47,352 nt of DNA from Methanospirillum stamsii (GTDB lineage Archaea; Halobacteriota; Methanomicrobia; Methanomicrobiales; Methanospirillaceae): positions 1-47,352 of the forward strand of contig NZ_QGMZ01000049.1 of the NCBI RefSeq assembly GCF_003173335.1, read 5' to 3'. The notes below the pieces were generated by a model. It was not told the origin of the DNA, did no database searches, and worked only from the letters and a program-made list of their open reading frames with translations. This document shows positions 6,362 through 47,352 of this stretch, in pieces. How positions within the stretch are numbered: the first letter of the stretch is position 1; the number at the start of each line of letters is the position of its first letter. A program made the translations under genes and the position numbers.

Positions 6362-6472
6362 ACCCGGAATACCGGTTTTCTGGCTAACAAGAACATGGGG
6401 ATGTACTGATTCCGGTGAGCGTAAGATGTATAAACCGGTTGATGTTTAACCCGGCATTTCTAATATATCTGT

Positions 6473-8602
6473 ATGCGTCGGCTGGTGACAGGTAACGATG
6501 ACCAGAATCGCTGGATTTGTTTCATACTGGCTATTACTATCATTGTTTTTTCAATCGTCTGGTATGCTTTGTCCAGGGATATTCATGTTGTCATATCTCA
6601 CCTGCTCTATATTCCGGTTATTTTAGCCTGTTACCGGTTTCCCATCCCAGGTCTTATTTTCACTCTCGTAATAATTGGTGGTTATCTGGGTTTTGAAGCG
6701 AATATTTCTGATAATTACCAGATTACTCTTGACGCTCTCTTACGCGGGGTAATGATCTTCATCATCGGCGGGGTTGTAACCTACCTTTCATTGTATCTCC
6801 GGTTTCGGGAGAAAAGTTATCTGCGCCTTCTTTCCAATGTCGATACCGGGGTTCTGGTAACAAATAAGGATGGCATCATCCTGTACGCAAATCCCTATGC
6901 TCATGGTGTACTGGACCGCAGAGACAGTAGTGTTGTCGGGATGTCACTTGAAAATTTTGCACAGGATAAAAAAGAGCTGGCCGATTATCTCTTGTCATGC
7001 CTCTCATCTGATACCCGTGCATCTGTCACAGAATTAAACCTGAAAAGAAAAGACGGTTTTTTTGTTCCGGTTATGATTGTTGGGTATTGTGAAAAGCAGG
7101 AGGACGTCATTCTCACCATCACTGATCTTTCTGAAGAGAAATGGATGGCCCATGAACTGGCTACCGGAAAGGTGGTCCTAAAAACACTTCTTGATGCCAT
7201 TTCTGAAGGAGTATTCCTGTCTGATACCTTTGGAAAAATTATCAGTATTAATAAATCATGTCGGGAAATTGCCGGATGGGAAGAGGGCATGGATATCAGT
7301 CAGAAGACCGGATTTTTCGAAGACCGTGTCTATGAGGAACTAAAAAAGGCTGTTTCCCGGTGTGTTCTTGAAAAAATTCCCCTGACTCTCTATCTGGATT
7401 CTGATACCAGTCCATCTAATCGTTACTATGAATTAATCCTGACTCCGGTTCCTGATGATGGGGGTGCAACAACCCGGGTTGCCGGAGTCATCCATGATAT
7501 CACTGATCAGGAAAATTACCTGAACAAGATAAAGGAACGAGAGGAGTATCTTCGCCTGGTTCTGGACGGCCTTCCACTTGCAACGATTGTAATCGATCCT
7601 TCACACAAGGTCATGTCTGTAAACCAGGCACTTTCCATGCTTTTTGAACAGGATGTTCTGAACCTCATTGGAACATCTGATCATGGCAATCTTCTTTATC
7701 CGGCAAAAGAACGTCCCATGCTTGCAGACCTTCTGGTGAATGAGGATGTGGACATTTTGCTTGAAGAAAATTATGGGGGTCTTTTTTCATCTTCTCCAAC
7801 CGTGCCCGGAGCATACGAAGTCATTGATTTTTATCCTCACATCGGTGATGAGGGTAAATGGATCCGGAGCACTGCAGCCCGGCTGGTTGATGAAAACGGG
7901 GTGACTATTGGTGCAATTGAGACATTTGAAGATTTTTCAACCCAGAAACAGGCAGAAGAAATAATCCGGATAAGCGAGGAACGGTTTAAGATTGCATCTC
8001 ATATCGCAACAGATCTCATATTTGAATATGAACAGGTCACTGACAGGATTTCCTGGTTTGGAGATATCGACAAATGGCTTGGCCTTGAATCACCCGGAAG
8101 GGTTAGTACTCTTACCGGCTGGGTCACGCTTATCCATCAGGATGATGTCGACCGTATCAGGAATTCATTTATCCAGCATGTTCTCTCCGGAGATCCAATC
8201 AGTGAAGAACTTCGGATAAAACACCGGAATGGTCAGTACCAGACCTGGGTGATAAAAGCAGTTGCACTCTATAATGCCCAGTTCCAGCAGATAAAAACGA
8301 TTGGAGTTGTATCAGACATCAGTGAGATGCGGGCAAATGAGGAGGCAAAAAAGAAAGCTCTTGTTGCCATAGAAAAATATATCGAGCAGTTTGCAATCCT
8401 TGGTGATCATATCCGAAATCCTCTGCAGGTGATTGCCGGGTATAATGATCTTCAGAGTGGAGAATACAAGGAAAAAATAGCACTCCAGATATCCCATGTG
8501 AACCGGATTGTTGATCAGCTTGACAGGGGATGGATTGAATCAGAAAGTATCAGGGATTTTCTTCGCAGGCATTATGGTATTTCAGAAAACGAAAAATTCT
8601 AA
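6473..8602 (+). CDS. membrane multi-PAS sensor with DHp-like end, no ATPase domain
   Basis: The 709-residue sensor has four hydrophobic segments in the first 110 residues (from WICFILAITIIVF to IGGVVTYLSLYL), then about four PAS modules (roughly 118-220, 230-350, 362-490 and 500-620). The last 80 residues resemble a histidine-kinase dimerisation helix pair with DHIRNPLQVI, where His is the possible phosphoacceptor. The protein then ends: no N, G1 or G2 box of a HATPase domain is present, and the stop is followed 13 bp later by a convergent gene. It therefore either relies on another kinase in trans or signals without phosphorylation. The ligand is unknown. It lies alone between Pelota and the nuclease gene. 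Confidence 0.85.
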   Translation: MRRLVTGNDDQNRWICFILAITIIVFSIVWYALSRDIHVVISHLLYIPVILACYRFPIPGLIFTLVIIGGYLGFEANISDNYQITLDALLRGVMIFIIGGVVTYLSLYLRFREKSYLRLLSNVDTGVLVTNKDGIILYANPYAHGVLDRRDSSVVGMSLENFAQDKKELADYLLSCLSSDTRASVTELNLKRKDGFFVPVMIVGYCEKQEDVILTITDLSEEKWMAHELATGKVVLKTLLDAISEGVFLSDTFGKIISINKSCREIAGWEEGMDISQKTGFFEDRVYEELKKAVSRCVLEKIPLTLYLDSDTSPSNRYYELILTPVPDDGGATTRVAGVIHDITDQENYLNKIKEREEYLRLVLDGLPLATIVIDPSHKVMSVNQALSMLFEQDVLNLIGTSDHGNLLYPAKERPMLADLLVNEDVDILLEENYGGLFSSSPTVPGAYEVIDFYPHIGDEGKWIRSTAARLVDENGVTIGAIETFEDFSTQKQAEEIIRISEERFKIASHIATDLIFEYEQVTDRISWFGDIDKWLGLESPGRVSTLTGWVTLIHQDDVDRIRNSFIQHVLSGDPISEELRIKHRNGQYQTWVIKAVALYNAQFQQIKTIGVVSDISEMRANEEAKKKALVAIEKYIEQFAILGDHIRNPLQVIAGYNDLQSGEYKEKIALQISHVNRIVDQLDRGWIESESIRDFLRRHYGISENEKF

Positions 8603-30829: not shown

Positions 30830-31516
30830 ATGAGTACAGTATCGAGCACTATAAACCGGTTTATCAATAATTATTTAACGCGAATGGATACTGCTGAACG
30901 GGAAGATACCCTGCTTTCACTGATGCGTCTTTTTGAACGAACCAAAGAGAGTTCCTGCTCTTCTGATCTGGCTAATCAGGCCGGGATTCCTGTTCAGAAT
31001 ATGGAGCAATTTCTGTATCTTCTCATTGAATCCGGTGATGTAGAAAAAGATGAAAATGGCCGGTATTTTTTGACCAATAAAGGCCTTCATGCTGCAAAAA
31101 CTGTGATGCGCAGGCATCATGTCCTTGAAACATTTCTCCAGGAAATGCTGGGGATGGATCATGAAAAGGCACATGAACAGGCCTGCACCATGGAACATCA
31201 TACATCGGATGATACGATAAACCGGCTCAGGCAATTCCTCCGGAAAGGCCGGGATTGTCCGGGGTCGTGCCAGGTCCATCACCGTCATCATACCTGCACA
31301 ACTCTTGCCGATTGCAGACAGGGCGAACATGTGACAATTACAGCCATCAAAGGATGCGGACGGGCATTACGACTGGCTGACTTAGGTCTAATTCCCGGAC
31401 AGGAGGTTCAAGTTCTTGAGCGAATGGCTGATACGATGCTCATCAGGGTGAAAGATTGCGATATTGCCATTAGTCCTGAAATTGCCCGTACAGTCCTGGT
31501 CGGGGTGGACCAGTGA
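30830..31516 (+). CDS. DtxR-type metalloregulator with FeoA domain
   Basis: The 228-residue protein has an N-terminal winged helix (about 20-90), a DtxR dimerisation segment with AHEQACTMEHHTSDD, the usual metal ligand motif, and a C-terminal FeoA/SH3-like domain (about 155-228, GEHVTITAIKGCGRALRLADLGL). Between them sits a Cys/His-rich stretch, CPGSCQVHHRHHTC, that could add a metal site. The FeoA part regulates or partners FeoB. It overlaps feoB by 4 bp (GTGA), so an iron-responsive regulator and FeoA activity are fused and coupled to the transporter. Iron or manganese repression is likely but untested. Confidence 0.9.
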   Translation: MSTVSSTINRFINNYLTRMDTAEREDTLLSLMRLFERTKESSCSSDLANQAGIPVQNMEQFLYLLIESGDVEKDENGRYFLTNKGLHAAKTVMRRHHVLETFLQEMLGMDHEKAHEQACTMEHHTSDDTINRLRQFLRKGRDCPGSCQVHHRHHTCTTLADCRQGEHVTITAIKGCGRALRLADLGLIPGQEVQVLERMADTMLIRVKDCDIAISPEIARTVLVGVDQ

Positions 31517-33369
31517 AGATTGGGCTTATTGGAAATCCGAATGTTGGAAAATCCCTGATATTCTCCCATCTTACCGGAATTGGTGTTGAGGTTAGTAACT
31601 ATCCGGGAACTACGGTTGATATCCTCTCCGGTGTATCCTGTATCAACCGCCTTCCGGTGGAGATCACCGATCTTCCGGGTATATATTCTCTTGACGGTGA
31701 AAGCGATGAAGAACGACTGGTAAGAGATCTGGTGACTTCCCGGTCATTTGATGTCCTGGTTATGGTTCTTGATGCCGCTCACCTGGAACGAAATCTGTAT
31801 CTCTTTCTGCAGGTTTTAGAACATCAGGTTCCGATGATTGCAGTTCTGAACATGGCAGATGAGGCAGAAGAGCAGGGAATTTCCATTAATACTCAGGCTT
31901 TTTCTGATATCTGCGGGGTTCCCGTGCTCCTTACTGCTGCAACTATCGGAAAAAACCTGCCTGAAATAATTCCTCTTGCTCTGGAAAAAGCGGCAATCGG
32001 ACATTTTCAGGTCTCATATGACCGGCACATTGAAGCTGCAATCCGGACATTGGGGCGATTATCCGGGGCAGACCGGATATCTGTTCTTCTGGCACTTCAG
32101 GGAATTGGAACTGATGTATTACTGCTGGAAGGGGCGGCAACCATCGCCAAAGAGATTGAAGAAGAACACCAGATGCCGGTATCACGAATTCTTGCAGGAA
32201 ACAGGCATCATGCTGCAACAGAACTCAGCAAGCAGGTCATAACTCGTGCGCCGGTAAAAGAATCGCGCGGACCTGACCGGTGGCTGCTCCGTCCATTCCC
32301 CGGAGTCCTGATAATGGCCGGGGTTCTTATCTCATTGCTTTTGTGTGTCTTCATGGTAGGTTCTTTTTTTGAAGAACTCATCGTGGAAGGATTTGATCTC
32401 TTTATCATCGAACCACTCAAGGCCGCAGGTTTTGACCCCCTGGTCTATGAGTTGCTCTTCTCCTTTTTTATTGCCATTCAGGCTGGACTTGGTATTGCAT
32501 TTCCTTTTGTCTTTACGTTCTACCTTCTCATGTCGGTAGTGGAAGATACCGGATACATGAGCCGGATTGCATTCCTTGCCGATCGTATTATGCACCGGTT
32601 TGGTCTTCACGGGCAGGCGATAATTCCCATGGTTCTCGGTCTTGGTTGTAATGTTCCGGCGGTTATGGCAATACGCCAGATAGGGACGAAACGTGAGCGG
32701 TATATTGCAGCATTTCTGATAACCATGGTTCCGTGTTCTGCAAGGACGGTAATTATTGCCGGAATTGTTGCGGTTTTTGTCGGGATTTATGCTGCACTTT
32801 CGATTTATCTGATAATATTCGTACTCATCCTTCTTACCGGAATATTTCTTTCACGGGTGACTACCGGCAGTCAGCTTGGCATGGTCCTGGAAGTTCCTCC
32901 CCTTCGTATTCCCTCACCTGGTATGGTTCTTACCCGTGCATGGATTCATATCCGTGAATTTCTTGTGATTGCAATGCCGCTCCTCATCGTCAGCAGTGTA
33001 ATCCTTGGATTGCTTGGATTTTATGGAATCCTGGATGTCATTGAACTGTATACTGCACCGGTTATGGAAGGACTGCTTGGTCTTCCGACCTTTGCCTCGA
33101 CGTCACTTCTTTTTGGTATCCTTCGAAAAGAGATGGCATTTGAAACCCTTGTTGTTCTTGCCGGAACTGCAAATCTGACTGAGGTCATGACGACTCTTCA
33201 GCTCTATATCTTTGCCCTGGTAAGCACCCTTTTTGTTCCCTGTATCTCAACGATTGCTGTTTTATACCGGGAACAGGGTCTAAAAACAGCGGTCCTGATA
33301 TCAATTTATACCGTTTTACTCGGACTTGTTGCGGGAATCCTGATTAATTATGTATTCAGGGTCATGTAA
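31513..33369 (+). CDS. feoB: ferrous iron transporter FeoB
   Basis: The 618-residue FeoB imports Fe2+. It starts with GTG. The N-terminal G domain has GNPNVGKS (G1), a YPGTTVD G2 segment, DLPGIYSL (G3) and NMAD (G4), followed by a helical spacer (about 165-260). The membrane half has Gate motifs, each with a conserved Cys: LGLGCNVPAVMAIR and MVPCSARTVI. The protein is shorter than many bacterial FeoB, mostly by a short linker. It is translated with the upstream DtxR-FeoA fusion. Confidence 0.96.
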   Translation: MKIGLIGNPNVGKSLIFSHLTGIGVEVSNYPGTTVDILSGVSCINRLPVEITDLPGIYSLDGESDEERLVRDLVTSRSFDVLVMVLDAAHLERNLYLFLQVLEHQVPMIAVLNMADEAEEQGISINTQAFSDICGVPVLLTAATIGKNLPEIIPLALEKAAIGHFQVSYDRHIEAAIRTLGRLSGADRISVLLALQGIGTDVLLLEGAATIAKEIEEEHQMPVSRILAGNRHHAATELSKQVITRAPVKESRGPDRWLLRPFPGVLIMAGVLISLLLCVFMVGSFFEELIVEGFDLFIIEPLKAAGFDPLVYELLFSFFIAIQAGLGIAFPFVFTFYLLMSVVEDTGYMSRIAFLADRIMHRFGLHGQAIIPMVLGLGCNVPAVMAIRQIGTKRERYIAAFLITMVPCSARTVIIAGIVAVFVGIYAALSIYLIIFVLILLTGIFLSRVTTGSQLGMVLEVPPLRIPSPGMVLTRAWIHIREFLVIAMPLLIVSSVILGLLGFYGILDVIELYTAPVMEGLLGLPTFASTSLLFGILRKEMAFETLVVLAGTANLTEVMTTLQLYIFALVSTLFVPCISTIAVLYREQGLKTAVLISIYTVLLGLVAGILINYVFRVM

Positions 33370-33406
33370 CTGAAGTGTTTATTCCAGAAGATCGAAAGAG
33401 TATAAT

Positions 33407-34825
33407 ATGGATTCCCATCCCCTGATTCTTGGTGGAAACTGTAAAAAAACAGCCAATCTTAAAGAGGTACATAATCCCTACACCGGCCAGGTATGTGGCA
33501 TTGTCTCGATGGCAGGAAGGGATGAAGTTCTTGAAGCGCTCATGATTGCTGAAAAGGGAGCTACAGTGATGGCCCGCCTTCCTTCTCATGCACGGGCTGC
33601 AATACTTCATCGACTGGCCGATTTGATGCAGGAAGAGGCTGAAGAACTTACTTCAATCATTATTAAAGAAGGGGGAAAAGTCAGAAAATATGCAGTCGCA
33701 GAAGTTTCACGGGCCATCGGAACCATCAGAATATCTGCAGAGGAAGCTGTCCGGATATCCGGGTCCATGGTTCCGATGGATGGGTATCCTGCAGGGGAAG
33801 GACACCTGGCATTTTCTATACGTGTTCCTGTTGGGATAGTACTCGCGATAACTCCCTTTAATCTACCGCTAAATCAGATCTGTCATAAAGCAGGGCCTGC
33901 AATTGCTGCCGGAAATTCATGTATTATCAAGCCGTCGTCAGCAACTCCGATGACTGCCCTGAAATTTGGCGAACTGTTTCTAAAAGCCGGGCTTCCAAAA
34001 GAGGCAATGAGTGTACTTCCCTGCCAGTCTGATATCGCAGAACTGTTAGCGGTTCATAGAAGGATTGGTGCATTAAGTTTCACCGGCAGTCCGGAAGTCG
34101 GCTGGCATCTTCGTCAGGTGACCAAAGCCGGAAGGATCACTCTTGAACTGGGAGGCAATGCTGCTGTAATTGTTCATGATGATGCGGATATTAAGACTGC
34201 TGCAGGGCGGATTGTTGAGGGCGCATTTTCACATGCCGGTCAGGTGTGTATCTCTGTCCAGCGTGTTTTCGTTCAGCAAAAGGTCTATGATTCTCTTGTC
34301 CGGGAGATTGAATCACGGTGTAATGCCCTCAAAATTGATGATCCTGAAAACATCGAAACCGACATCGGTCCGATGATTCATGAAGACAAGGCAAGCCAGG
34401 CGCTTTCCCGTATTTCCGAAGCAGTAGCAAAAGGGGCAAAACTGGTCTGTGGGGGGAGATGTGAGGGAGCAGTTCTCTATCCAACAGTCCTTGTTGATAC
34501 CACTCCTGATATGACCATTAATTGTGACGAGGTTTTTGCCCCGGTTGTAACAGTTACTCCCTATGAAACATTTGAAGAAGCTATTGAGATGGTGAATAAT
34601 TCAAAATACGGGCTTCAGGCAGGAGTGTTTACCTCAGACATTAAAAGAGCTGTTTATGCGGCCTCCTCAATAGAGTGTGGTGCAGTTGTTATCGGGGACA
34701 TACCGACGTACAGGATTGACAGTATGCCGTATGGAGGCGTGAAAGCTTCCGGAATCGGAAGAGAGGGCCCTTTTTATGCTATCCGGGAGATGACCGAAGA
34801 GAGACTTATAATCATTAAGGCTTGA
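33407..34825 (+). CDS. aldehyde dehydrogenase, lactaldehyde dehydrogenase (CofA) like
   Basis: The 472-residue NAD(P)-dependent aldehyde dehydrogenase has the full pattern: ITPFNLPLNQICHK (substrate Asn), NSCIIKPSSATPM (cofactor Lys), SFTGSPEVGW, LELGGNAAVIV (catalytic Glu), GQVCISVQRV (catalytic Cys) and EVFAPVVTV. Compared with bacterial relatives it resembles the methanogen lactaldehyde dehydrogenase that makes lactate for coenzyme F420, but GapN-like enzymes are close, so I give no gene symbol. It lies 37 bp after feoB with no obvious functional link. Confidence 0.88.
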   Translation: MDSHPLILGGNCKKTANLKEVHNPYTGQVCGIVSMAGRDEVLEALMIAEKGATVMARLPSHARAAILHRLADLMQEEAEELTSIIIKEGGKVRKYAVAEVSRAIGTIRISAEEAVRISGSMVPMDGYPAGEGHLAFSIRVPVGIVLAITPFNLPLNQICHKAGPAIAAGNSCIIKPSSATPMTALKFGELFLKAGLPKEAMSVLPCQSDIAELLAVHRRIGALSFTGSPEVGWHLRQVTKAGRITLELGGNAAVIVHDDADIKTAAGRIVEGAFSHAGQVCISVQRVFVQQKVYDSLVREIESRCNALKIDDPENIETDIGPMIHEDKASQALSRISEAVAKGAKLVCGGRCEGAVLYPTVLVDTTPDMTINCDEVFAPVVTVTPYETFEEAIEMVNNSKYGLQAGVFTSDIKRAVYAASSIECGAVVIGDIPTYRIDSMPYGGVKASGIGREGPFYAIREMTEERLIIIKA

Positions 34826-34934
34826 ATTTTTTGCATAAGAAACCAGAGGACATAAATTCCTTTACTGAAATATTCTGGTATATCAGTACTCGGTGAGAAC
34901 CCGTTCTCCAAATACAATACTGTAGGAAGCATTC

Positions 34935-35969
34935 ATGAAGATTGACAAAAAGTTGTTGTTGATTATTACTTTTGTCGGAGCATTGGTGGTTCTTCTTCTG
35001 GTGTTTTTCCTAACCACCGGGTTTTCTCCAGGTATCAAGGATTATATCAGTGCGGTTTATTTTGCAATATGGATAACGGCAGCCATGGGAATGTGGCTGT
35101 ATGGGATCCAGCCATATTTAGAGGACAGGAAAAAGGCAAAAGAGTCAAAGAAAGCTCCATCGGTGGCACAGAAAGTCGCTCCCATGCCCTCTCCGAAATC
35201 CGGTCTTCCCCTTCGTGACAGGATTCGTGAATATGTTACAGAACGACGGAAGGAAGAAGGATTACCTGTTCCTGAACCTCTTCTCCCGTCAAAGGCCGGT
35301 GGCGGGGCGGCTCCTGTAAAAACTGCAAAAGGTACGGGTAGTTCCTCTGGTGCTGCGATGGGTGCAGCGGCTGTATCCGGAGCTGTTGCCGGCGGAGCAG
35401 CTGCAGCTTCAGTTGGTGAGGGTGACCTGCCCCTGCCTGATGATTTTGACGAGGCCGGTGGCGGAGATGTCTTTGGAGATGAGTTTCCGGAAGAAGAGGG
35501 CGGTTCACTTCCGGGTCTTGGTGATGAGGAACTTGGTTCATTTGATGAAGAGGGTGGTGAGCCTTCCCTTCCTGGCCTTGGTGACGAGGATTTCGGGTCA
35601 TTTGATGAGGGTGAGGGTGGCGAGTCTTCTCTTCCCGGTCTTGGTGATGAAGACCTTGGTTCATTTGATGAGACCGAAGTTGAAGAGGGCCCGTCAGCTG
35701 ATACTGGTGGTCTTCCTGACTTTGAAGGGGATCTTGAATCAGATATTTCTGAATCTGATATCTCTGATTCAATGGATGATTTCTCCGAAGAAGAGTCCGG
35801 CTCTGATACCGATCTCCTGGCAGATGATACCGGTGAAGGTGGGCTCTCCGAAGATGGTCTTCCTGACCTTGATATGCCTCTTGATGATGATATAATGGAT
35901 GAAGATATGTCCAGCGATGATGAATTTTCAGATATTGAATTTGAAGATATCGAACCTGATGAAACCTGA
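34935..35969 (+). CDS. acidic repeat protein with two membrane helices
   Basis: This 344-residue protein has two N-terminal membrane helices (about 6-28 and 37-57), a basic region (about 60-115), an Ala/Gly-rich stretch (about 122-160), and a long Asp/Glu/Ser-rich tail. The tail carries three near-exact units of SLPGLGDEELGSFDE type at residues 191-205, 211-225 and 232-246. I recognise no family. The tail is likely disordered and could bind cations, DNA-binding proteins or a partner. The high GC at codon position three also creates a long antisense reading frame, which I reject as a gene. It is followed by a secreted CAP protein and a kinase on the same strand. Confidence 0.75.
   Translation: MKIDKKLLLIITFVGALVVLLLVFFLTTGFSPGIKDYISAVYFAIWITAAMGMWLYGIQPYLEDRKKAKESKKAPSVAQKVAPMPSPKSGLPLRDRIREYVTERRKEEGLPVPEPLLPSKAGGGAAPVKTAKGTGSSSGAAMGAAAVSGAVAGGAAAASVGEGDLPLPDDFDEAGGGDVFGDEFPEEEGGSLPGLGDEELGSFDEEGGEPSLPGLGDEDFGSFDEGEGGESSLPGLGDEDLGSFDETEVEEGPSADTGGLPDFEGDLESDISESDISDSMDDFSEEESGSDTDLLADDTGEGGLSEDGLPDLDMPLDDDIMDEDMSSDDEFSDIEFEDIEPDET
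35505..35672 (+). repeat. three in-frame coding repeats
   Basis: Three copies of a 15-codon unit (SLPGLGDE-D/E-x-GSFDE) follow each other at a 20- to 21-codon pitch inside the acidic protein. Base differences between copies are mostly at third positions, as in TTCCGGGTCTTGG, CTGGCCTTGG and CCGGTCTTGG, so the units have been kept by selection on protein sequence. Confidence 0.85.
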
Positions 35970-36025
35970 ATAGGGTAAACCCACCACAAACCCCTTTTTC
36001 TTATCGCTCATACCTGTGTAAACTG

Positions 36026-36955
36026 ATGAAATCATCTCTCTTCTCTCCTGTTCTCATTATCCGATTATTCCTTATTGGCACCGTTTTTTCCCTCTCGTCT
36101 TCTGTGGTATATGCAGGCTCTGTCGGACCTGTTCTTGTGATATCAGATATTTCCGGAGATGAGGATGCTTTTTCAGGGTATCCTTATAACGGCTCAATCA
36201 CTCTTGAAAATCAGGGAGATCAGACCTCGGGTGTGACAAAAGTTATCGTATTCCTGAAAAATTCTGAAACTGAAAAGAGTTACACCATTTATTCTGATCT
36301 CATTGATCCGATAAGGCCCAAAGAAGCCAGAACTCTTGACTTTGTTGGTACTGCAGACGAAGAAATAATTCCGGGAAAATACTACCTGCATGGGTATCTT
36401 CCTGAATCATCTATCCGAGAGCTTGATAATACGAAAACACTTGCAAGAAATGTCCATCCGGTTCTGGTCACTCCAAAAGAGCTACCTGATAAGGATGTTC
36501 TCTTGCAGGATATCATCACAGCGATAAGTAACCAGACAAATGAGCAGCGGATGGTAAGCGGAATAAGTTCTCTTGAGTGGGATGACTCACTTGCTGAAAT
36601 TGCCGATGGGTATGCAAAAGAAATTTCTGGTTCAACATTTCTCTCTCATACCGACTCATCCGGCAGGGGACCTTCAGAGCGTGCTGAGGAGGCAGGGTAT
36701 CCGATAACAAAAGAGATAGAAGGTGGTGTCAGGATCGGGATCTCTGAAAATCTTGCATACATCGGGACCGGGATGGTTGCCGGAGTCGGGTACGTGGATC
36801 CGACAGATCCAACCGCCATTGCAAGAGCACTCATGGATGGCTGGATGAAGAGTCCGGGTCACCGTGAAAATATTCTTGATCCCTTATCTGACCGGTTCGG
36901 AGTTGGAATATTCTATCATGACGGGTATTACTACGCGGTATCGAATTTCTGGTAA
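36026..36955 (+). CDS. secreted CAP (SCP/PR1) domain protein
   Basis: The 309-residue protein has a signal peptide (about 1-30). An immunoglobulin-like middle part (about 33-150) reads DISGDEDAFSGYPYNGSITLENQGD, as in CARDB-type domains. A CAP domain (about 165-309) carries SLEWDDSLAEIADGYAKE, FLSHTDSSGRGP, ISENLAY and SPGHRENILDPLSDRFGVGIFY, with the conserved His and Glu of the family. CAP proteins are extracellular; their roles are varied and not enzymatically settled. It lies 56 bp after the acidic repeat gene and 24 bp before a histidine kinase. Confidence 0.9.
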   Translation: MKSSLFSPVLIIRLFLIGTVFSLSSSVVYAGSVGPVLVISDISGDEDAFSGYPYNGSITLENQGDQTSGVTKVIVFLKNSETEKSYTIYSDLIDPIRPKEARTLDFVGTADEEIIPGKYYLHGYLPESSIRELDNTKTLARNVHPVLVTPKELPDKDVLLQDIITAISNQTNEQRMVSGISSLEWDDSLAEIADGYAKEISGSTFLSHTDSSGRGPSERAEEAGYPITKEIEGGVRIGISENLAYIGTGMVAGVGYVDPTDPTAIARALMDGWMKSPGHRENILDPLSDRFGVGIFYHDGYYYAVSNFW

Positions 36956-36979
36956 TACCATAGTTGGGTTCATATCATA

Positions 36980-38080
36980 ATGTATAAAACGAATCCGGAA
37001 GACGCATATAATCAGGTGAACAGAGAAGGCACAAAACCTAAAGAGCCCGTGCATTCGTGGGAACTCCTACTTGAACCCGGAATTTCATGGATTGTCTGGC
37101 GCCAGGATAGTGACATTCTTTTCAGTCTTCCAGAAAATAATGGGAATTCTGTATCGGTATCAGAAGTAAAATCAATAGAATCAGTTTTTCCTCCTGACAT
37201 CGCTTTTGTGGTGCATGAGGAAATCAGCAACGCTCAAGAGATGAATCCGGGACAGACCAGGACTATCTCCCTGGCTCTTCCCGGCTCTGATCATGGGTGG
37301 TCCGGAATCCTCTGCAGACTTGTGGATGGAAGGTTTTTTCTTATCTGGTCAGGTCAGGCAGCCGAAGAATATGAACCTGAATTTTGTGATATCAATGAAC
37401 ATATCCGTTCAGAACGAGCGGTCAGAAAGGCGAATGAAAAACTGAATTTTTTTAACGGTATTGTACGCCATGACATTGCCAATCTCATCATGGGTATCAC
37501 CGGATATCTAGATATTGTTAATGAACTAAATACCGATGAAGAAATCCGTCTTCTGGTCAAAAAAAGCCGGAATCTGAGTGAACGAGTCAGACGGGTCATT
37601 GAGCTTACCCGGAGTTACCAGGACTTTGGAACCCGTCCTCCCTCCTATATTGAGGCTGCACAGGTTGTCCTTCGGATATTGCATCGTCGTGAATTCTCAG
37701 GTATCATCGAAGCAGAAGTTGAGCTTCAGGATCTGTATGTCTATGTTGACCGGATGTTTGATGAGGTCATATACGAGATTGTCAGAAATAGTATTCAATA
37801 TGGTGGAAACGGGGTCCGGATCCGGTTTTCTTGTGCTGCAGGTACGGAGGGAATTACCCTTATTATAGAAGATAACGGACCTGGAATCCATCCGGATGAG
37901 AAAGTCAGAATCTTTTCCCGGAATTATGCAGACCGGAAGGGATATGGTCTTTATCTGGCGGCAGAGATTCTTGATGTCACCGGGGTAACAATAAAAGAAA
38001 CCGGAGTCTTTGGAGAGGGAGTACGGTTTGAAATGTTCTTTCCAACCGATACCGCCCATTTTGGAAATAATTTTGTGTGA
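36980..38080 (+). CDS. histidine kinase with novel N-terminal region
   Basis: The 366-residue cytoplasmic kinase has an N-terminal region of about 140 residues with no domain I recognise. It is followed by a dimerisation helix with FNGIVRHDIANLIMGITGYLDI (phosphoacceptor His in HDIxN form, near 163) and an ATPase domain. The ATPase has an N-box EIVRNSIQYGGNG, G1 IEDNGPGIHPDE and G2 RKGYGLYLAAEIL. No membrane segment is present. It ends immediately beside a convergent HAD gene: the two stop codons abut at 38080/38081 with no gap. Confidence 0.88.
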   Translation: MYKTNPEDAYNQVNREGTKPKEPVHSWELLLEPGISWIVWRQDSDILFSLPENNGNSVSVSEVKSIESVFPPDIAFVVHEEISNAQEMNPGQTRTISLALPGSDHGWSGILCRLVDGRFFLIWSGQAAEEYEPEFCDINEHIRSERAVRKANEKLNFFNGIVRHDIANLIMGITGYLDIVNELNTDEEIRLLVKKSRNLSERVRRVIELTRSYQDFGTRPPSYIEAAQVVLRILHRREFSGIIEAEVELQDLYVYVDRMFDEVIYEIVRNSIQYGGNGVRIRFSCAAGTEGITLIIEDNGPGIHPDEKVRIFSRNYADRKGYGLYLAAEILDVTGVTIKETGVFGEGVRFEMFFPTDTAHFGNNFV

Positions 38081-38761
38081 TTATCCCACGATTCCAAGAA
38101 GGGGCAGGAGATCAGAAAACCGGTCGATTACGTGCACTGGTTTTTCATTTAGCGAGTCACCAATCCAGTCTCCGTATCTTGCATGCACCGTGGTGTAGCC
38201 AAGTTCGTTTCCCGGAATCATTTCCCGGCGAATAGAATCTCCAACAAGCCAGATATCATCTTCCTGAATTTTCAGTTCCCTGATTGCATGAAGGAACGGG
38301 GTATGATCAGGTTTTCTTTTCCCGGTAATGTCCGGTGTTATTAGTACCCGAAAATAATCTGCAAGGCCGCATCGGTCAAGTCTTTTCTTTGCCTGTCCGG
38401 TGGATGCATCGGTTACGATGGCCATGGGGATGCTTTTTTCATAGAGCGTTATGATAGCCTGGATAACTCCCGGATATGGGGTTACATGAGCAATTTTTGT
38501 CTCTTCAAAAAGTTTTACTGCATGGTCTGCCAGTTCCGGAGTAAATACTCCCCTGTCTTTCAGATAATCATGGATATGTAAGGAATCTTCAAATCCACGG
38601 ACCGGACGTAAAAAATATTGAAAGAGATCTTCAGGGTTGCCTGCGGCGAGGTACCTGATAACTGCGGTGCAGGCTGCATGTTTAGCATCGGTAAAGGTGC
38701 AGAGTGTATTGTCAAGGTCAAACAGGATTGCATCCGGCATCTGGCCGGCTGGTTCTTTCAT
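38081..38761 (-). CDS. HAD superfamily phosphatase
   Basis: The 226-residue protein has the HAD motifs: I, AILFDLDNTLCTF with nucleophile Asp; II, AIVTDASTG; III, Lys in RKPDHTPF; IV, LVGDSIRREMIPG with the acidic metal site. An alpha-helical cap (about 20-100) follows motif I, as in phosphoglycolate phosphatase and pyrimidine nucleotidase relatives. The substrate is unknown. It stands alone in a convergent position. Confidence 0.9.
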   Translation of the reverse strand: MKEPAGQMPDAILFDLDNTLCTFTDAKHAACTAVIRYLAAGNPEDLFQYFLRPVRGFEDSLHIHDYLKDRGVFTPELADHAVKLFEETKIAHVTPYPGVIQAIITLYEKSIPMAIVTDASTGQAKKRLDRCGLADYFRVLITPDITGKRKPDHTPFLHAIRELKIQEDDIWLVGDSIRREMIPGNELGYTTVHARYGDWIGDSLNEKPVHVIDRFSDLLPLLGIVG

Positions 38762-38923
38762 CTTTCTTATTCTTTTTTTCTGATGTGAGATAGGGTTTCC
38801 CTGCAGGTCCCTTCGAGAGTCCGAATCATGCGGGTATCCTTCTGTAAGGGTGTGTTATCCTGTCAATATAGGGGATATTATCGGTAAAACCATATTCAAG
38901 TATCACTCATATTTTCATTCGCG

Positions 38924-38960
38924 CAAATATTTGTGGAGGTGTACGAGACTTACCATCTCG
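38924..38960 (+). promoter_or_regulatory. palindrome and hairpin before a DNA-binding gene
   Basis: CAAATATTTG (38924-38933) is a perfect 10-bp palindrome, and CGAGA plus TCTCG (38944-38948 and 38956-38960) form a 5-bp stem with a 7-base loop ending six bases before the ATG at 38967. These could be operator sites for the ribbon-helix-helix protein coded just downstream. Both are short enough to arise by chance. Confidence 0.35.
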
Positions 38961-38966
38961 GCATAT

Positions 38967-39626
38967 ATGAGAAAGGATTTGACAATATCCCTTGATGAAG
39001 AACATATTAATGAACTGCTGGAAGTTGCGGAAAAGCAAAATATCACCCTTTCAGCGCTCATTCGCACGATTGTTGCATCATATCTGCAGGCAGTCCGGGA
39101 TGGGAGAGCCCCGGTCCTTTCGGGCATTTTGTCTGGTGATGAGAATGAAACCCTGGCTGCGGATTCTTCACTTCTATCACAGACGGTAGCATATCATGGG
39201 AAGCTTATTGATGAGTTGCAAAAAAGGGTGGTGTTCCTCGAAGGCGGTCTGAAAAAACCAGGAGTTCAGACTTTTCCCAGTAGTCATATACCCGATATTA
39301 TGACTCTTACCAGTCCGGCTTTAGGTATTGCTTCTGGTACGGGTGTTATTGATACCGATCTCAGGCCGGTATCCGGACTTTCTGATGAGGCTCTGGTCAA
39401 GATACCTCTGCAGCCGATAGCTCCGGTGATGGATGCCATGGAGATGGGATCTATGAAGATTCATCCGGAGAAGGAGTATTCACAGACCGAGGCGGCAGTT
39501 GCCCTTCGGGTTTCGGTATCCACGATGCGGAAATATATCAAAGATAAGAAGATTCCAGCAAGAAAAGTTGGCAGATCCTGGCTTATCCAGGGTGCAAATA
39601 TTCTCTCTTTCAATTCAGAGACGTGA
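38967..39626 (+). CDS. DNA-binding protein with RHH and MerR-like ends
   Basis: I start at the ATG at 38967 (219 residues), because DLTISLDEEHINELLEVAEKQN opens a ribbon-helix-helix domain (about 1-45); an upstream ATG at 38850 adds a non-conserved tail. A middle region of about 120 residues has no recognisable fold apart from a helix LIDELQKRVVFLEGG. The C-terminal 50 residues have SQTEAAVALRVSVSTMRKYIKDKKI and GRSWLI, the pattern of an excisionase or MerR-like winged helix. Two DNA-binding heads in one chain could bridge two sites. The next gene is 120 bp downstream. Confidence 0.75.
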   Translation: MRKDLTISLDEEHINELLEVAEKQNITLSALIRTIVASYLQAVRDGRAPVLSGILSGDENETLAADSSLLSQTVAYHGKLIDELQKRVVFLEGGLKKPGVQTFPSSHIPDIMTLTSPALGIASGTGVIDTDLRPVSGLSDEALVKIPLQPIAPVMDAMEMGSMKIHPEKEYSQTEAAVALRVSVSTMRKYIKDKKIPARKVGRSWLIQGANILSFNSET

Positions 39627-39745
39627 GCAAACCAGAGGGTTTTTCTCTGTGTCCTGATAATGTAAAAGGTACCGGGCATCACTCTGGTGTGGGAGGTGGG
39701 GCTCTACACCAGAACATGCCCTGGGATGCAGCATGCAGGGGGAGC

Positions 39746-40198
39746 ATGCAGAAACAACCGTATAATCTGTTTCCTGTAGTTTTTTTACTTCTTGTACTTC
39801 CGGTTATTTTAACGCCGCCTCAGGTAACGGGTTGCTGTGATGAGATTGTGTCTACCAGAAACATGCTCATACTGGCAGATTATCCGGATGATATGGTGCC
39901 TGTACCGGTGATACACCCGGAAGAAGCCAATAAGACAGCGTCACAGGCAGTACCTGCTCCTGAGTCCGGCCCGGTGATGTCGGTTCCAATTCCTGCCGGA
40001 TTGAAAACTCCTGCGATCTCTCAGGTTTCATTGCTCGCTGACCCGGCACCAACTCCGACTCCATCGATGGCGAAGGGATGGGTTCAGGTCAATCTGGGGA
40101 CTTCGATTGACAGTCCGGGACAGATGGTTGAAGACAGGCAGCGGTACATGGCTTCCGGGTTATTTAATGTGCATGTGTACCACCAGTTTGCCGGATAA
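39746..40198 (+). CDS. lipoprotein-like hypothetical
   Basis: The ATG at 39746 has CAGGGGGAGC directly before it, a strong ribosome binding site, and opens a signal peptide ending in QVTGC, so Cys is a likely lipid site. An upstream GTG at 39623 overlaps the previous stop but would add an uncharged, non-signal stretch. The mature part is Pro/Ala-rich (APAPESGPVMSVPIPAG, TPTPSM), which suggests an extended surface linker, and ends in a short segment with VYHQFAG. No family is recognised. It is the last gene before the tRNA-Val. Confidence 0.6.
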   Translation: MQKQPYNLFPVVFLLLVLPVILTPPQVTGCCDEIVSTRNMLILADYPDDMVPVPVIHPEEANKTASQAVPAPESGPVMSVPIPAGLKTPAISQVSLLADPAPTPTPSMAKGWVQVNLGTSIDSPGQMVEDRQRYMASGLFNVHVYHQFAG

Positions 40199-40214
40199 GG
40201 GACAATAGATAATG

Positions 40215-40223
40215 CTTATATTG
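40215..40223 (+). promoter_or_regulatory. TATA box candidate for tRNA-Val
   Basis: CTTATATTG sits 28-36 bases before the mature tRNA 5' end. Archaeal spacing then puts transcription start about 9-12 bases before the tRNA, as usual. Confidence 0.5.
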
Positions 40224-40250
40224 TTTCAGGTATACTTTGTTAGGCGCAAC

Positions 40251-40324
40251 GGGCTTATGGTCTAGGTGGTTATGACACCGCCTTTACACGGCGGAGGTCG
40301 CCGGTTCGAATCCGGCTGGGCCCA
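40251..40324 (+). tRNA. tRNA-Val (anticodon UAC)
   Basis: The 74-base gene folds as a full cloverleaf. The acceptor GGGCTTA pairs with TGGGCCC with two G-U pairs; the anticodon stem is CCGCC/GGCGG around the loop TTTACAC, giving anticodon UAC (valine, GUA); the T stem is GCCGG/CCGGC with TTCGAAT in the loop. The discriminator is A and CCA is not encoded. No intron is seen. A T-rich stretch CCTTCTTTT follows directly. The last 42 bases recur in decayed form at 47231-47272. Confidence 0.96.
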
Positions 40325-40430
40325 TCCTTCTTTTAATATCACTTTATTATCCGGGAAAAATAAAATCTCTGATGTAAATCCTGGGATTATGGGTGAGAAG
40401 TATTAATTATTCTAAAAATAATTATCCTTA

Positions 40431-41991: not shown

Positions 41992-43575
41992 ATGCGGTTT
42001 TTCAACACTGCCGGACCTATTAACTGCCAGGATCATTATTGCCTGCCCCCATTGTCTCGTTTCGATCTCAATGAAATTCTCTCTTTAATTGACCAAAAAA
42101 AATACTTTGTTCTTCATGCACCACGGCAGACCGGGAAGACCTCATGTCTCTTAGCCCTTCGTGATTCTCTGAACCAGCAAGGAAGATATGCTGTCCTCTA
42201 TGTTAATGTTGAAATGGGACAGACAGCCAGAGGAGATGTCAGCAGGGGGATGAAGGCAATCCTCAGTGAGCTAACCTATCAGGCAGAACGGACATTGGGG
42301 GAGAGCACATTCCAGAACAGGATATCGGAGATTATTACAGAATCCGGAGAAGATACCGCACTGAAGAGCGTTTTGTCCGGCCTGTGTCAAAGACTGAATC
42401 TGCCTCTTGTTCTCTGTATTGATGAAGTTGATGCTCTCGTTGGTGATACGCTGATCTCACTTCTCCGTCAGATACGGGCCGGATATGCTGACAGGCCGAC
42501 CGGGTTTCCAGTCTCAATAATTCTCTGCGGTGTACGTGATGTCCGAGATTACCGCATCCACTCGGACCGGCAGCAGGAGATAATCACCGGGGGAAGTGCC
42601 TTTAACATTAAAGCCGAATCACTCCGGCTTGGTAATTTTTCTGAAGAAGAGACAAGGACTCTTCTCATGCAACATACCTCAGAAACTGGTCAGGTGTTTG
42701 AGACGGAGGCTCTGTCAGCCATATGGAATTTGACAAAAGGACAGCCCTGGTTGGTGAATGCTCTTGCATATGAAGCCTGTTTTAAACTGGAACAGGGAAA
42801 AGATCGGAAAAATTCCATAACTCATAATCTGATCATAGAAGCCAAAGAACAACTTATTCGCAGGCGTGATACTCATCTCGACCAACTTGCAGATAAACTC
42901 AAAGAAGAGCGGGTTCGAAGGGTTATCGAACCGATGCTCACAGGTGAGGTCTTTGAACAGGATTTCAGATCTGATGATGTCGGATATCTGGTTGATCTAG
43001 GTCTTATTACTCAGGAGTTGAACGGGGCTATCCGGATTGCAAACCCGATATACCAGGAGATAATACCCCGGGAACTGAGCTGGGGAGCACAGACCGGAAT
43101 GACTATTGAGACTGCCTGGTATGTTGCTCCGAACGGAAGACTCCTCCTTTCAAAACTTCTTAGTGCATTTGTCCAGTTTTATCGGGAACATTCCGGAAGC
43201 TGGCTGGAGATTGCCAAATATAAAGAGGCAGGACCACACCTGCTGCTCCAGGCATTCCTTCAACGGATTGTGAACGGAGGCGGGCAGATAACATGGGAAT
43301 ATGGCCTTGGTATGGGGAGGACTGATCTCTTTATCCTCTGGCATCTCCCGGACGGAGCCGGGCAGCGTTTCGTTATTGAATGTAAGGTGCAGCGGGACTC
43401 ACGGGAAAGAACGATTGAAATCGGGCTTAATCAGGTCATCAGGTATGCTGATACCTGTGGAGCAGATGAAGTGTACCTTGTTCTCTTTGATCCGGCTGAA
43501 AAAACATGGGAAAAGAAGATTTTTACCGAAACAGTGGTGAAAGACGGAATTTCAGTTGAGATATTCGGGATGTAA
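41992..43575 (+). CDS. AAA+ ATPase with C-terminal PD-(D/E)XK-like domain
   Basis: The 527-residue protein has an ATPase half (about 1-300): Walker A HAPRQTGKTS near residue 43 and Walker B LVLCIDEVDAL near 145, followed by a winged-helix-like part (about 290-360). The last 110 residues resemble a PD-(D/E)XK nuclease: GRTDLFILW (Asp), FVIECKVQRD (Glu-x-Lys) and a late YLVLFDPAEK. This architecture belongs to a group of archaeal and bacterial ATPase/nuclease proteins that have often been linked to mobile or defence loci; activity is not known. It has its own promoter, behind a long hairpin. Confidence 0.85.
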   Translation: MRFFNTAGPINCQDHYCLPPLSRFDLNEILSLIDQKKYFVLHAPRQTGKTSCLLALRDSLNQQGRYAVLYVNVEMGQTARGDVSRGMKAILSELTYQAERTLGESTFQNRISEIITESGEDTALKSVLSGLCQRLNLPLVLCIDEVDALVGDTLISLLRQIRAGYADRPTGFPVSIILCGVRDVRDYRIHSDRQQEIITGGSAFNIKAESLRLGNFSEEETRTLLMQHTSETGQVFETEALSAIWNLTKGQPWLVNALAYEACFKLEQGKDRKNSITHNLIIEAKEQLIRRRDTHLDQLADKLKEERVRRVIEPMLTGEVFEQDFRSDDVGYLVDLGLITQELNGAIRIANPIYQEIIPRELSWGAQTGMTIETAWYVAPNGRLLLSKLLSAFVQFYREHSGSWLEIAKYKEAGPHLLLQAFLQRIVNGGGQITWEYGLGMGRTDLFILWHLPDGAGQRFVIECKVQRDSRERTIEIGLNQVIRYADTCGADEVYLVLFDPAEKTWEKKIFTETVVKDGISVEIFGM

Positions 43576-43776: not shown

Positions 43777-44177
43777 TCACGAATGAAACTCCTGATTTTT
43801 GATGAATTCAGCGGGCGTCATTACAATGATATCATCCGGAAAGTGCCTGGTATTTCCTGTAATAAGTGGTACCTTGCTATGATATGCCAGTTCATAAAAA
43901 GGCCTGTCAGAAGGGTCAGGAAGGTTTTTCAAAACTGGAGGGGGGACTATCCATAATCCTTCATGTTTAACGAATGAGAGCAGAGCATTCACATCATCCG
44001 GAGAAAACCAAACCCGGGCCTTTTCAGAACCACATCGTATTCATGAAAAACCCTGCTGTACAGTATGATTCGAACGGTTCAGGCAATTATCATCCGGACT
44101 ATTGTTGCAGGATTTCCATGGGGGTTTAAGAGTCCTGAAACCAGAACATTTGTATCAATGACGATGATATCATTCAT
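43777..44177 (-). pseudogene. broken PIN-domain toxin gene
   Basis: Read from the ATG at 44177 on the minus strand, the product starts with IIVIDTNVLVSGLLNPHGNP, a PIN domain opening, then meets TGA after 32 codons. Beyond it, in the same frame, RIILYSRVFHEYDVVLKRPGFG continues the fold. A one-base shift near 44000 is needed to read FSPDDVNALLSFVKHEG and GNTRHFP, which end the domain at 43777. The total of 401 bases (133.7 codons) fits an original PIN toxin of about 134 residues with one base lost. The start overlaps the antitoxin stop by 8 bp. Confidence 0.85.
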
Positions 44178-44454
44178 GAATCATCTCATTTCTGACTTCA
44201 TGAATTTCTTCATTAATATCAGATAATTTCAGTTTATCTAAACCTGATTTTTTACTTTTCTCCCACATATGCTCAATTGCCTGTTCAGCTCGTAATCTCC
44301 GGATAAGGTCAAGTACTTCTTCAGGTTCTCCGTTAATTGAGATTGAAATGACTTTTGGTTTTCCATTCACCGTGATGATGGTATCTTTATCTTCGCCCTC
44401 TTTCCATAACAATGCAGGATTTGATTTGAGTTCAGCTGAAGAAATATATCTCAT
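44170..44454 (-). CDS. Phd/YefM-like antitoxin
   Basis: The 94-residue protein opens with MRYISSAELKSNPALLWKEG and ITVNGKPKVISISINGE, the pattern of Phd-type DNA-binding antitoxins, followed by a charged helical tail (EEVLDLIRRLRAEQAIEHMWE) that would bind a toxin. It precedes the PIN gene on the same strand with an 8-bp overlap. The toxin is broken, so this is either an orphan antitoxin or still works on another toxin. Confidence 0.85.
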   Translation of the reverse strand: MRYISSAELKSNPALLWKEGEDKDTIITVNGKPKVISISINGEPEEVLDLIRRLRAEQAIEHMWEKSKKSGLDKLKLSDINEEIHEVRNEMIHE

Positions 44455-44612
44455 ACTCTATCCGATAATTGATCACATAATATATCTTCTTTATCCTCTC
44501 TTTTGTGATAATAACCAAAACTTGGGAGTGAATATCATCACGAATCGTATCAATTCTCCTCAAAATTTAATTTTATCAAAAAATTTGGGCCTATTTAGCA
44601 ATCCAAGAGTCC

Positions 44613-44639
44613 GTAGCACTTGTAACACTTGTAGCAGTT
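44613..44639 (+). repeat. three tandem 9-mers (iteron-like)
   Basis: GTAGCACTT, GTAACACTT and GTAGCAGTT follow each other without spacer. They share an 11-base stretch CACTTGTAACA, exact at 44617-44627, with the second cluster read on the opposite strand. Confidence 0.75.
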
Positions 44640-44875
44640 CCTATGGAGAGGCCCCGGAAATTTTTTTAATGATATTTCTCTCTAATCGGATTAGAAAATT
44701 TTTTTCGCCCTCGTTCTTATGTATTGGTATATTAGAAAAAATGATGTAAATCCCATCTCGAAATATCTATATTTCGGTCTGAATATTATAATTTGCATCT
44801 ATTTGAAAATTACACTTTATAATTAACCGAATTGCTATAGACGATTAAAAAAACCCAGGTGTGTTCATTATAATT

Positions 44876-44902
44876 GTTACAAGTGTTAAAACTGTTAAAA
44901 AC
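44876..44902 (+). repeat. three tandem 9-mers, opposite orientation
   Basis: GTTACAAGT, GTTAAAACT and GTTAAAAAC are tandem. The minus strand of the first unit region reads CACTTGTAACA, matching the first cluster exactly over 11 bases. Confidence 0.7.
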
Positions 44903-45037: not shown

Positions 45038-45409
45038 TTAAACTGACTCACTCCACTGAATAATTTCTGTGGCTATCTCTATTGCTTCTTCTGTTTTCAG
45101 GGTATCCGGAATTGTATCATCATACCTGGCTTTTACTGCATAGGGATTGAGAAGAGCAATGGTGTCACTTTCTATCGGTAATGATAATGATAGATCCTGA
45201 ATTAATTCAGTAAGTTCAACAAGGTCATGTATCTTCCGGATGAGGACTCCTTTCTTAATTAGGATAGATTTTAGAGCTTTTTCTACTGTTTGTTGGGCAT
45301 GAAAACAGATGATTGGAGAAGGGCCATCCATTTCATACAGTAGTTTTGCAGCAAGAAGGTCTGCATGAGCAAGACGGATTAATAATGCACTTTCTTCATC
45401 CACACTCAT
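45038..45409 (-). CDS. HEPN domain toxin-like protein
   Basis: The 123-residue helical protein has CFHAQQTVEKALKSILIKKGVLIRKIHDLVEL near residue 35 (the helix and the R-x-x-H motif near IRKIHDL) and LNPYAVKARYDD near 88, which are hallmarks of HEPN proteins of HEPN/MNT modules. It overlaps the MNT gene by 14 bp on the same strand. In characterised pairs HEPN acts as an RNase toxin and the MNT partner blocks it by adding nucleotides; here this is inferred by homology. Both reading frames appear intact. Confidence 0.9.
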   Translation of the reverse strand: MSVDEESALLIRLAHADLLAAKLLYEMDGPSPIICFHAQQTVEKALKSILIKKGVLIRKIHDLVELTELIQDLSLSLPIESDTIALLNPYAVKARYDDTIPDTLKTEEAIEIATEIIQWSESV

Positions 45410-45725
45410 ACAGTACCTTTCCTTCAGACAGGGCCCAATATAATACTGTTCCCGGTACCGGGTTTAGGGTTTTCTCCGTAGCATATACCATAATATCAAT
45501 CCCTACACCAGGAGCTATTCTTCCGGCGGCTTTTCGGAGCCTGACCATTTCCATTCCCTGATGTTTCACAGTATCCTCAATAACCATGATATCAACATCT
45601 GAATCCGGTGTCTCTTCTCCACGAGCATATGAACCAAAAAGAATGATTTTTCTGGGATTTGCAGCCTCAATAATCCGTGTCACAACCTTTTGGATATCTT
45701 CCATGGTTACTTGTAATTGTTCCAT
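45396..45725 (-). CDS. MNT nucleotidyltransferase antitoxin
   Basis: The 109-residue protein has the minimal nucleotidyltransferase pattern: IILFGSYARGEETPDSDVDIMV near residue 25, with the GSxxRG and the DxD metal pair, followed by a C-terminal MVYATEKTLNPVPG region. It is the upstream gene of the HEPN/MNT unit. Length is normal. It is preceded by about 580 bp with no gene on the same strand, so its own promoter should be in that gap. Confidence 0.92.
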   Translation of the reverse strand: MEQLQVTMEDIQKVVTRIIEAANPRKIILFGSYARGEETPDSDVDIMVIEDTVKHQGMEMVRLRKAAGRIAPGVGIDIMVYATEKTLNPVPGTVLYWALSEGKVLYECG

Positions 45726-46304: not shown

Positions 46305-46813
46305 TTATCCCGGGCTCCAAATCGTAAAACCGGGTATTCTCGAAAAATCGGAATCACGTGTGGCAATATGGTGGATATCATTTTCAATTCCGGATGCAAC
46401 AACAGAAGCATCAGCAGCCATTAACGGAAATTTGCGGAGAATTTGAACCTGTTTTTTTATCACATTCTCGGAGTAATCAAGCAATTGAATATGAACAGAT
46501 AACAGGGTATCAACAAGTTCCCAGGTTCTAGAAAAAAATTTTTCTTCTATTTTTTGATGTTTTAAAACATTCAGGGCTTTTATCCTACTAATTGAATTAT
46601 CATGCTCCATAATCTCTGCAATCATCAGACGATGGATAAACTCATTTAATACGATGGCAGGAATAAATAAAGTTATTTCCTGTTTTATCCCTTTCATTAT
46701 AAAATTTGTACATTCCTCTCCATACTCTGGATGTGATCTAATGCCCAATAGATGAGAATGTTTGTATCTACCAGACACCATGTATCTGATGGAATATCCT
46801 GTAATTTATTCAA
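46305..46813 (-). pseudogene. frameshifted PIN-domain toxin gene
   Basis: From a TTG at 46813 the minus strand codes DTWCLVDTNILIYWALDH, the start of a PIN domain with the catalytic DTN, but it runs to a stop near 46697. The next frame continues directly with KGIKQEITLFIPAIVLNEF (catalytic Glu), LMAADASVVASG (Asp) and HHIATRDSDF (Asp), ending at 46305. The total of 509 bases (169.7 codons) needs a single-base shift near 46700. The reading that starts with MVSGRY is an artefact of the shift. All four acidic residues survive, so the lesion may be recent, or a sequencing error. Confidence 0.85.
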
Positions 46814-46973: not shown

Positions 46974-47352
46974 TCCACTTTACAAAGGATAAGGTTACTG
47001 TTATCGATTGAGCAATTTTTTTTGGAAAATGAATGCAGTTGTTCGATATCTGTTGTATTTTTTGTGGATAATTAAATATTAGGGATAGTATGGAATCTGA
47101 TAGAGGAATAATAAATTTTTCATTTCTATCCTACCTTCTTTGTATCAGGTTCTGATAAGAAAGCATGAATCAAATCTAGGTTTATACCTTCAAATTCTCT
47201 CTATCTCTCAAAATAGGCGGATTTAAGTGATTTACTAGACGGGAGTCGCTGGTTCGAATCCGGTTGGGCTCATTAATATCTTCCTTTTCGGCTCATCGCT
47301 ACTTTGAGTGGGTAATTACAAAACCATAAGGGGAAAATCAAGGGTGGGGGTG
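46974..47352. other. end of window: tRNA remnant, otherwise no gene seen
   Basis: No open reading frame with family signal was found. The region is AT-rich and contains the partial tRNA-Val copy at 47231-47272. Confidence 0.6.
47231..47272 (+). repeat. degenerate copy of the tRNA-Val 3' part (att-like)
   Basis: TTTAC at 47231 to GGGCTCA at 47272 matches bases 33-74 of the tRNA-Val gene at 34 of 42 positions. It begins at the anticodon loop and ends exactly at the discriminator base. The 11 bases TTCGAATCCGG are unchanged, and three of the differences are C to T. No 5' half is present. Confidence 0.8.

Follow-up and report, generated by a model that had tools for sequence, protein, structure and literature searches.

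The window, a stretch of 47,352 nucleotides that makes up contig NZ_QGMZ01000049.1 of Methanospirillum stamsii, contains an island of ~7 kb between an intact tRNA-Val (TAC) gene and a degenerate copy of the 3' end of this gene, where the contig itself ends (Table 1). As in other tRNA islands, the intact tRNA and the displaced 3' fragment form direct repeats, and the synteny shared with the related genome G001, which covers window positions 31343-40333, stops at the tRNA end. The cargo genes include an AAA ATPase, a Phd/YefM-like antitoxin with its truncated partner, a HEPN-MNT pair, and a PIN-domain gene. Integrase or replication genes were not seen among the island ORFs, so that, devoid of an integrase, it would be at most a relic or a non-autonomous island.

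Table 1. Features of the tRNA-Val island and of the repeat arrays that it contains (window coordinates).
Feature	Position	Strand	Remarks
tRNA-Val (TAC), intact	40251..40324	+	putative integration target
att-like repeat 1	40283..40325	+	3' 43 nt of the tRNA-Val gene
AAA ATPase (cargo)	41992..43575	+	weak C-terminal PD-(D/E)XK match
Truncated antitoxin partner	43777-43992	-	partner is a 134-aa ORF in G007 (L050:6110-6514)
Phd/YefM-like antitoxin (cargo)	44170..44454	-	PF02604, E 4e-4, below the Pfam cut-off
Left iteron array	44613..44639	+	matches the family unit pattern
Tail of left site	44640..44657	+	kept across the site family (site alignments)
AT-rich spacer between the two sites	44658..44853		candidate unwinding region; without assigned gene
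Tail of right site	44854..44871	-	matches the tail of a G005 pair
Right iteron array	44872..44898	-	three departures from the unit pattern
HEPN gene (cargo)	45038..45409	-	PF05168, E 2.6e-24; 3' end faces the right array
MNT nucleotidyltransferase (cargo)	45396..45725	-	partner of the HEPN gene; PF18765, E 1.8e-11
PIN-domain gene (cargo)	46305..46781	-	PF01850, E 4.6e-7
att-like repeat 2	47231..47273	+	35/43 identical to the tRNA-Val 3' end, of which it is a degenerate copy; marks the island's right limit

The 583-bp intergenic gap between the antitoxin and HEPN genes, with 30.7% GC as compared with 44.9% for the window, harbours two 27-bp arrays, each made of three 9-mers, that are 21/27 identical and face each other in inverted orientation 232 bp apart. 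The left array (GTAGCACTT GTAACACTT GTAGCAGTT) fits the family unit pattern G-NNN-CA[CG][AT]T, repeated three times, at 18 of the 18 constrained positions and is followed by the tail CCTATGGAGAGGCCCCGG and a run of T. The right array reads TTAACAGTT TTAACACTT GTAACAATT in the phase of the family, the cluster beginning with GTTACAAGT in the first-pass annotation being the same array in another phase, and its tail (ATAATGAACACACCTGGG) matches CTGTGCACACACCTGG, which is also the tail of an origin-like pair found beside a winged-helix gene in G005 (see below). In contrast with the right window array, the homologous array in G007 (G007:C41:42218-42244) is an exact match to the unit pattern; the window copy is partly decayed. 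The structure described by that annotation, namely facing clusters of 9-mers with an exact 11-base inverted match (CACTTGTAACA) in an AT-rich setting, was thus confirmed: a repeat search recovered inverted arms of 20 nt with 85% complementarity, and the whole interval between the arrays has 29.7% GC. Alignments revealed that the interior of the spacer is partly conserved in C7 of the same genome (G000) and in C41 of G007. A clear switch of GC skew, which the annotation had proposed to look for, was not seen at the arrays.

When the 583-bp gap was shuffled 4,000 times with dinucleotides preserved, no inverted pair arose, and 39 shuffles contained a single 9-periodic 27-mer at the threshold used; elsewhere in the window, only two stretches (near 10470 and 18496, ~8 kb apart) attain this level of 9-bp periodicity. 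The chance emergence of such repeats in AT-rich sequence, named in the first-pass annotation as a refuting explanation, can be rejected on these shuffles and on the recurrence of the repeats in relatives, which constitutes much stronger evidence than the shuffles. Pattern searches in 12 genomes of the genus (G000-G011, several of them incomplete drafts) detected the 27-bp array 2-7 times in each of six genomes (G000, G001, G003, G005, G006, and G007), in each case with exactly three 9-mers and, after them, a conserved tail (in many sites CTATGGAAAAGAGACC), while control searches with reversed patterns gave 0 or 1 match per genome. Most sites occur in facing inverted pairs, detected by the same approach in G000, G001, G003, G005, and G007, and all pairs with both ends on one contig have the left array on the + strand and the right one on the - strand. 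The genome of the window carries two other pairs: C7:109193-109492, a 300-bp unit 78% identical to that of the window and in reverse orientation, and C22:89110-90508, with arrays 1.4 kb apart. Most Methanospirillum pairs enclose 1.4-10.5 kb of genes, without a compact AT-rich spacer. Across 232 genomes of the order, close array matches were confined to Methanospirillum, with the exception of four single matches with 1-3 mismatches. A lone near-identical array (GTAACACAT GTAACACTT GTAACACTT) is present in another genus (L151, G140 C2, positions 6898-6924), on a contig where no module of the type described below was detected.

G000, G001, G003, and G005 have in common a type of locus composed of a helicase gene, a primase gene, a gene for a predicted winged-helix protein of ~297 aa, and an array located just past the stop codon of the last gene (24 bp downstream of the ~297-aa gene in G001, where the module is at 1.879-1.886 Mb). 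This ~4.6-kb module shows 77-88% DNA identity across the four genomes, and dN/dS values of ~0.1-0.25 for its three genes among these species indicate that it is under purifying selection. Array and ~297-aa gene co-occur in all six array-containing genomes, although G007 retains only a fragment of the gene, and no match to this gene was found in the array-less G002, G004, G008, G009, and G010, several of which are incomplete drafts. Family searches gave no match for the ~297-aa protein, and PDB profile searches yielded nothing meaningful; the N-terminus of this protein is predicted to fold as a winged helix (H-H-H-E-E, block pLDDT 73-91), the remainder being of low confidence, and Foldseek matches it to transcription factors of a generic kind (best E 0.01). 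In the window's own genome the module is found at the C22 locus, and no gene for an initiator, helicase, or primase lies beside the window copy. G005 possesses a second copy of the module, whose winged-helix protein shares 62-66% identity with the others; after this copy comes a perfect 28-bp inverted pair (AGGTGCAGCTCATGCAGCTCTTGTAGCA) with arms 279 bp apart and AT-rich DNA between them. The sequence of this pair differs from that of the main array and is found nowhere else in six genomes. Of its two tails, the near one matches that of the right window site and the far one is similar to that of the left site, and the unit can be aligned over its whole length with those of the window, C7, and G007.

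Further versions of the array occur in proviruses. G011 encodes a distant homologue of the winged-helix protein, together with primase and helicase, in a provirus with an integrase (PF00589, 3e-27) and a terminase (PF03237, 1e-12). Its arrays (GGAACACAT GTCCCAGAT GTACCAGAT, with tail ATAGGGGACAGACCCC) represent a third sequence type, and their three copies are all located around the winged-helix, primase, and helicase genes, with none elsewhere in G011 or in G001, G004, and G005. A helicase-alignment search revealed relatives of the helicase in other genera and families of Methanomicrobiales, several of which have arrays of 9-bp period within the helicase gene or next to it, with an NNN triplet specific to each: GGACCACTT three times in L118, and arrays of the GGCACACTT, GTGACACAT, and GTTACACTT types in L102, L115, and L152, respectively. 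Repeat periods other than 9 bp are almost absent at these helicase relatives. The family can accordingly be described by the unit G-NNN-CA[CG][AT]T, with NNN differing by element, and a tail near GGTACACACCC or GG[GT]ACA[CG]ACCC; the sites change their iterons from element to element and are concentrated in and around mobile elements. The exact unit pattern has 27 matches in the 232 genomes of the order, as opposed to 0 for the reversed control, and these 27 include at least four probable chance matches (L150, L155, L156, and L157), which we set aside as they are located in ordinary-looking genes and have no conserved tail. At the phylum scale, a search combining pattern and tail was too strict to be informative, as it missed the window's own site.

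In other helicase relatives (L113, L116, L117, and L121), no 9-bp arrays reached the threshold used. L113 (G001, 3.114-3.134 Mb) is a primase/helicase element beside a tRNA-Val (CAC) gene, an inverted copy of whose 3' end is found ~500 bp away. L121 (G011, 2.268-2.288 Mb) is a second provirus, with an integrase, a distant winged-helix homologue, primase and helicase homologues, and a tape measure gene. A contig binned in a Bacteroidetes MAG (L128, MWDJ01000090.1) encodes a helicase 54% identical to that of the G011 provirus, and is probably misbinned methanogen DNA. Scans of viral contigs with the winged-helix alignment and two helicases retrieved no relatives; with tblastn, the helicase had a single weak match among phages (25% identity, Virus Rctr41k) and none in plasmids, and the winged-helix protein had none in phages.

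Comparison with these replication modules and with the proviruses bearing integrase and terminase genes lends good support to the idea, already put forward in the first-pass annotation, that the repeats are an iteron-like origin from an element that once replicated, and the location of the window copy in a tRNA-Val island with att-like repeats points in the same direction. The same tRNA gene in G001 is followed, 6 kb further on, by an array pair, and in G007 the homologous pair has a tRNA-Val 3' fragment 1.2 kb away. We consider it probable that the pair represents a replication origin of the iteron type, of the sort on which a family of integrated viruses and related elements in Methanomicrobiales relies. 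Most likely, this position in the window is the remnant of a viral replication start, or a borrowed one, within an old island integrated at a tRNA, since its repeats match the signature found beside the DNA-copying genes of integrated viruses in related methanogens. As would be expected for such origins, the sites consist of several short direct repeats in cis that are element-specific and, in the window and in the second G005 copy, have an AT-rich neighbouring region, unlike the kilobase-spaced pairs. The two inverted sites, each with three iterons and a conserved tail, flank an AT-rich stretch; an initiator encoded by the element, for which the winged-helix protein beside the site and the C-terminal part of the primase-helicase are the candidates, may bind the iterons, melt the AT-rich DNA, and load the element's own helicase and primase to start replication. 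The origin reading accounts for the odd repeats of the window, and the arrays mark the island as derived from a mobile element.

Several known systems resemble this arrangement. SaPI origins have element-specific iterons and AT-rich DNA between iteron sets, two traits shared with the arrays described here. SaPIs encode an initiator-helicase and a primase, and their short-iteron origin lies just downstream of the helicase gene (PMC7581432), so that both cases combine a helicase-primase module with short iterons beside it. The elements studied here differ in their archaeal host, their 9-bp iterons in threes with the G-NNN-CA[CG][AT]T unit and a common tail, the presence of a separate winged-helix gene, the location of some sites inside the helicase gene, and the orphan copies in chromosomal islands. 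In SCCmec, the Cch2 helicase of a primase-helicase pair binds direct repeats beside its gene, on the downstream side, in a putative origin with a 23-bp repeat region comprising three iterons in which AAGTG is required for activity, the inverted repeats being dispensable for binding (PMC7581432). The likeness extends from the primase-helicase pair and the three iterons by the helicase gene to the CACTT of our unit, which is the reverse complement of AAGTG, but this last similarity may be a coincidence given that family and PDB searches found no link between these helicases and the Cch2 family. Archaeal plasmids of the pRN1 type likewise have a primase-helicase replication protein with an origin just 3' of its gene, although this origin is a stem-loop of ~100 nt, and the authors suggested that this class of proteins recognises stem-loops and not iterons (PMC4234260). 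Helicase relatives in three genomes carry the HBD domain (PF22763) of the NrS-1 phage primase-polymerase, whereas the Methanospirillum and G011 helicases have no Pfam match to it. To our knowledge, replication origins of methanogen viruses are poorly characterised, and no sites of this type were reported in the literature that we searched, mostly outside subscription journals.

The strongest rival to an origin, because some sites are near terminase genes, is a packaging function, in which the arrays would serve head-tailed archaeal viruses as pac sites bound by the small terminase subunit. Such a role can be envisaged since the provirus sites often fall within the 3' portion of the helicase gene and close to terminase genes: in L085, L102, L118, and L152 they are internal to the helicase gene or at its end, and terminase genes then follow in L085, L118, and L152. 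We nonetheless find it unlikely, as the sites of the Methanospirillum modules and of the second G005 copy adjoin the winged-helix gene in surroundings where no terminase was seen, those of G011 and L115 also occur on the far side of the replication genes, and AT-rich DNA framed by facing iterons is a typical feature of origins.

A regulatory function, with the arrays acting as operators or insulators bound by an antitoxin or by the winged-helix protein as a virus repressor, seems less probable still. Winged-helix proteins are often repressors, the best fold matches of the one found here are transcription factors, and toxin-antitoxin genes are present near several loci. However, the sites are as frequent between convergent genes, within genes, and at 3' ends as they are ahead of gene starts, and those of G011 and of the second G005 copy are downstream of the winged-helix gene, not in its divergent gap with the primase gene. 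This also bears on the other half of the first-pass interpretation, an operator for divergent antitoxin units, which did not stand: the antitoxin and HEPN genes on either side of the window arrays share the - strand and are not divergent, equivalent sites exist at loci without toxin-antitoxin genes, and their positions, which are not fixed relative to gene starts across loci, do not appear to fit promoters of antitoxin operons.

Two other readings have very little probability. On a transposon reading, the arrays would be the terminal inverted repeats of an element, with the 300-bp window unit as one of its non-autonomous copies and cargo inside the kb-long pairs, in agreement with the variable content enclosed by facing pairs and with the homology that in some cases stops at array edges; we rejected a MITE or IS origin, as no target-site duplication is apparent outside the pairs, weak conservation extends beyond the arrays, the pairs share no transposase, provirus sites are inside a gene, and the window and C7 units have common flanking DNA (HEPN 3' end), indicating that these two units did not move separately from one another. 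Sites serving site-specific recombination or element partition would equally explain the homology breaks at array edges between some loci, as well as the presence of VapBC genes between direct repeats of the site in G001 and G005, but the att-like repeats seen are tRNA-derived, unlike the arrays, and other rearrangements in the same loci miss the sites (L044 versus L048). As several rearrangements do not end at the sites, we also dropped cassette boundaries as the main reading.

Returning to the iteron-type origin, the window copy can be regarded as an orphan, with no adjacent initiator gene and with iterons matching those of the C22 module in the same genome. This situation, together with the decayed right array, suggests a relic of an integrated element, an origin served in trans, or a decoy for the initiator. 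More tentatively, and as a less probable scenario, the toxin-antitoxin/nuclease islands of Methanospirillum may keep orphan viral-origin copies that match the resident module under purifying selection, either as satellites replicated in trans or as decoys that titrate the initiator and thereby keep out incoming viruses of the same type. A recognisable site with an element-specific triplet (three G-NNN-CA[CG][AT]T units and a tail) could provide a handle on initiator specificity and element incompatibility, and possibly a vector origin for Methanomicrobiales.

Some additional features of these loci deserve mention. Homology between the C44 and C7 copies stops at the outer edge of the left array (window position 44610; L009, 5496), and it likewise ends at the site edge in several other pairs of loci. 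In L045 of G001 (5237-6388) and L049 of G005 (4022-5164), VapBC is enclosed by two sites that point in the same direction and have similar outer flanks of ~250 bp, as if duplicated around the toxin-antitoxin pair. Outside the island, the window also contains a 63-bp tandem repeat (35504-35673) with 2.8 copies and 76% matches.
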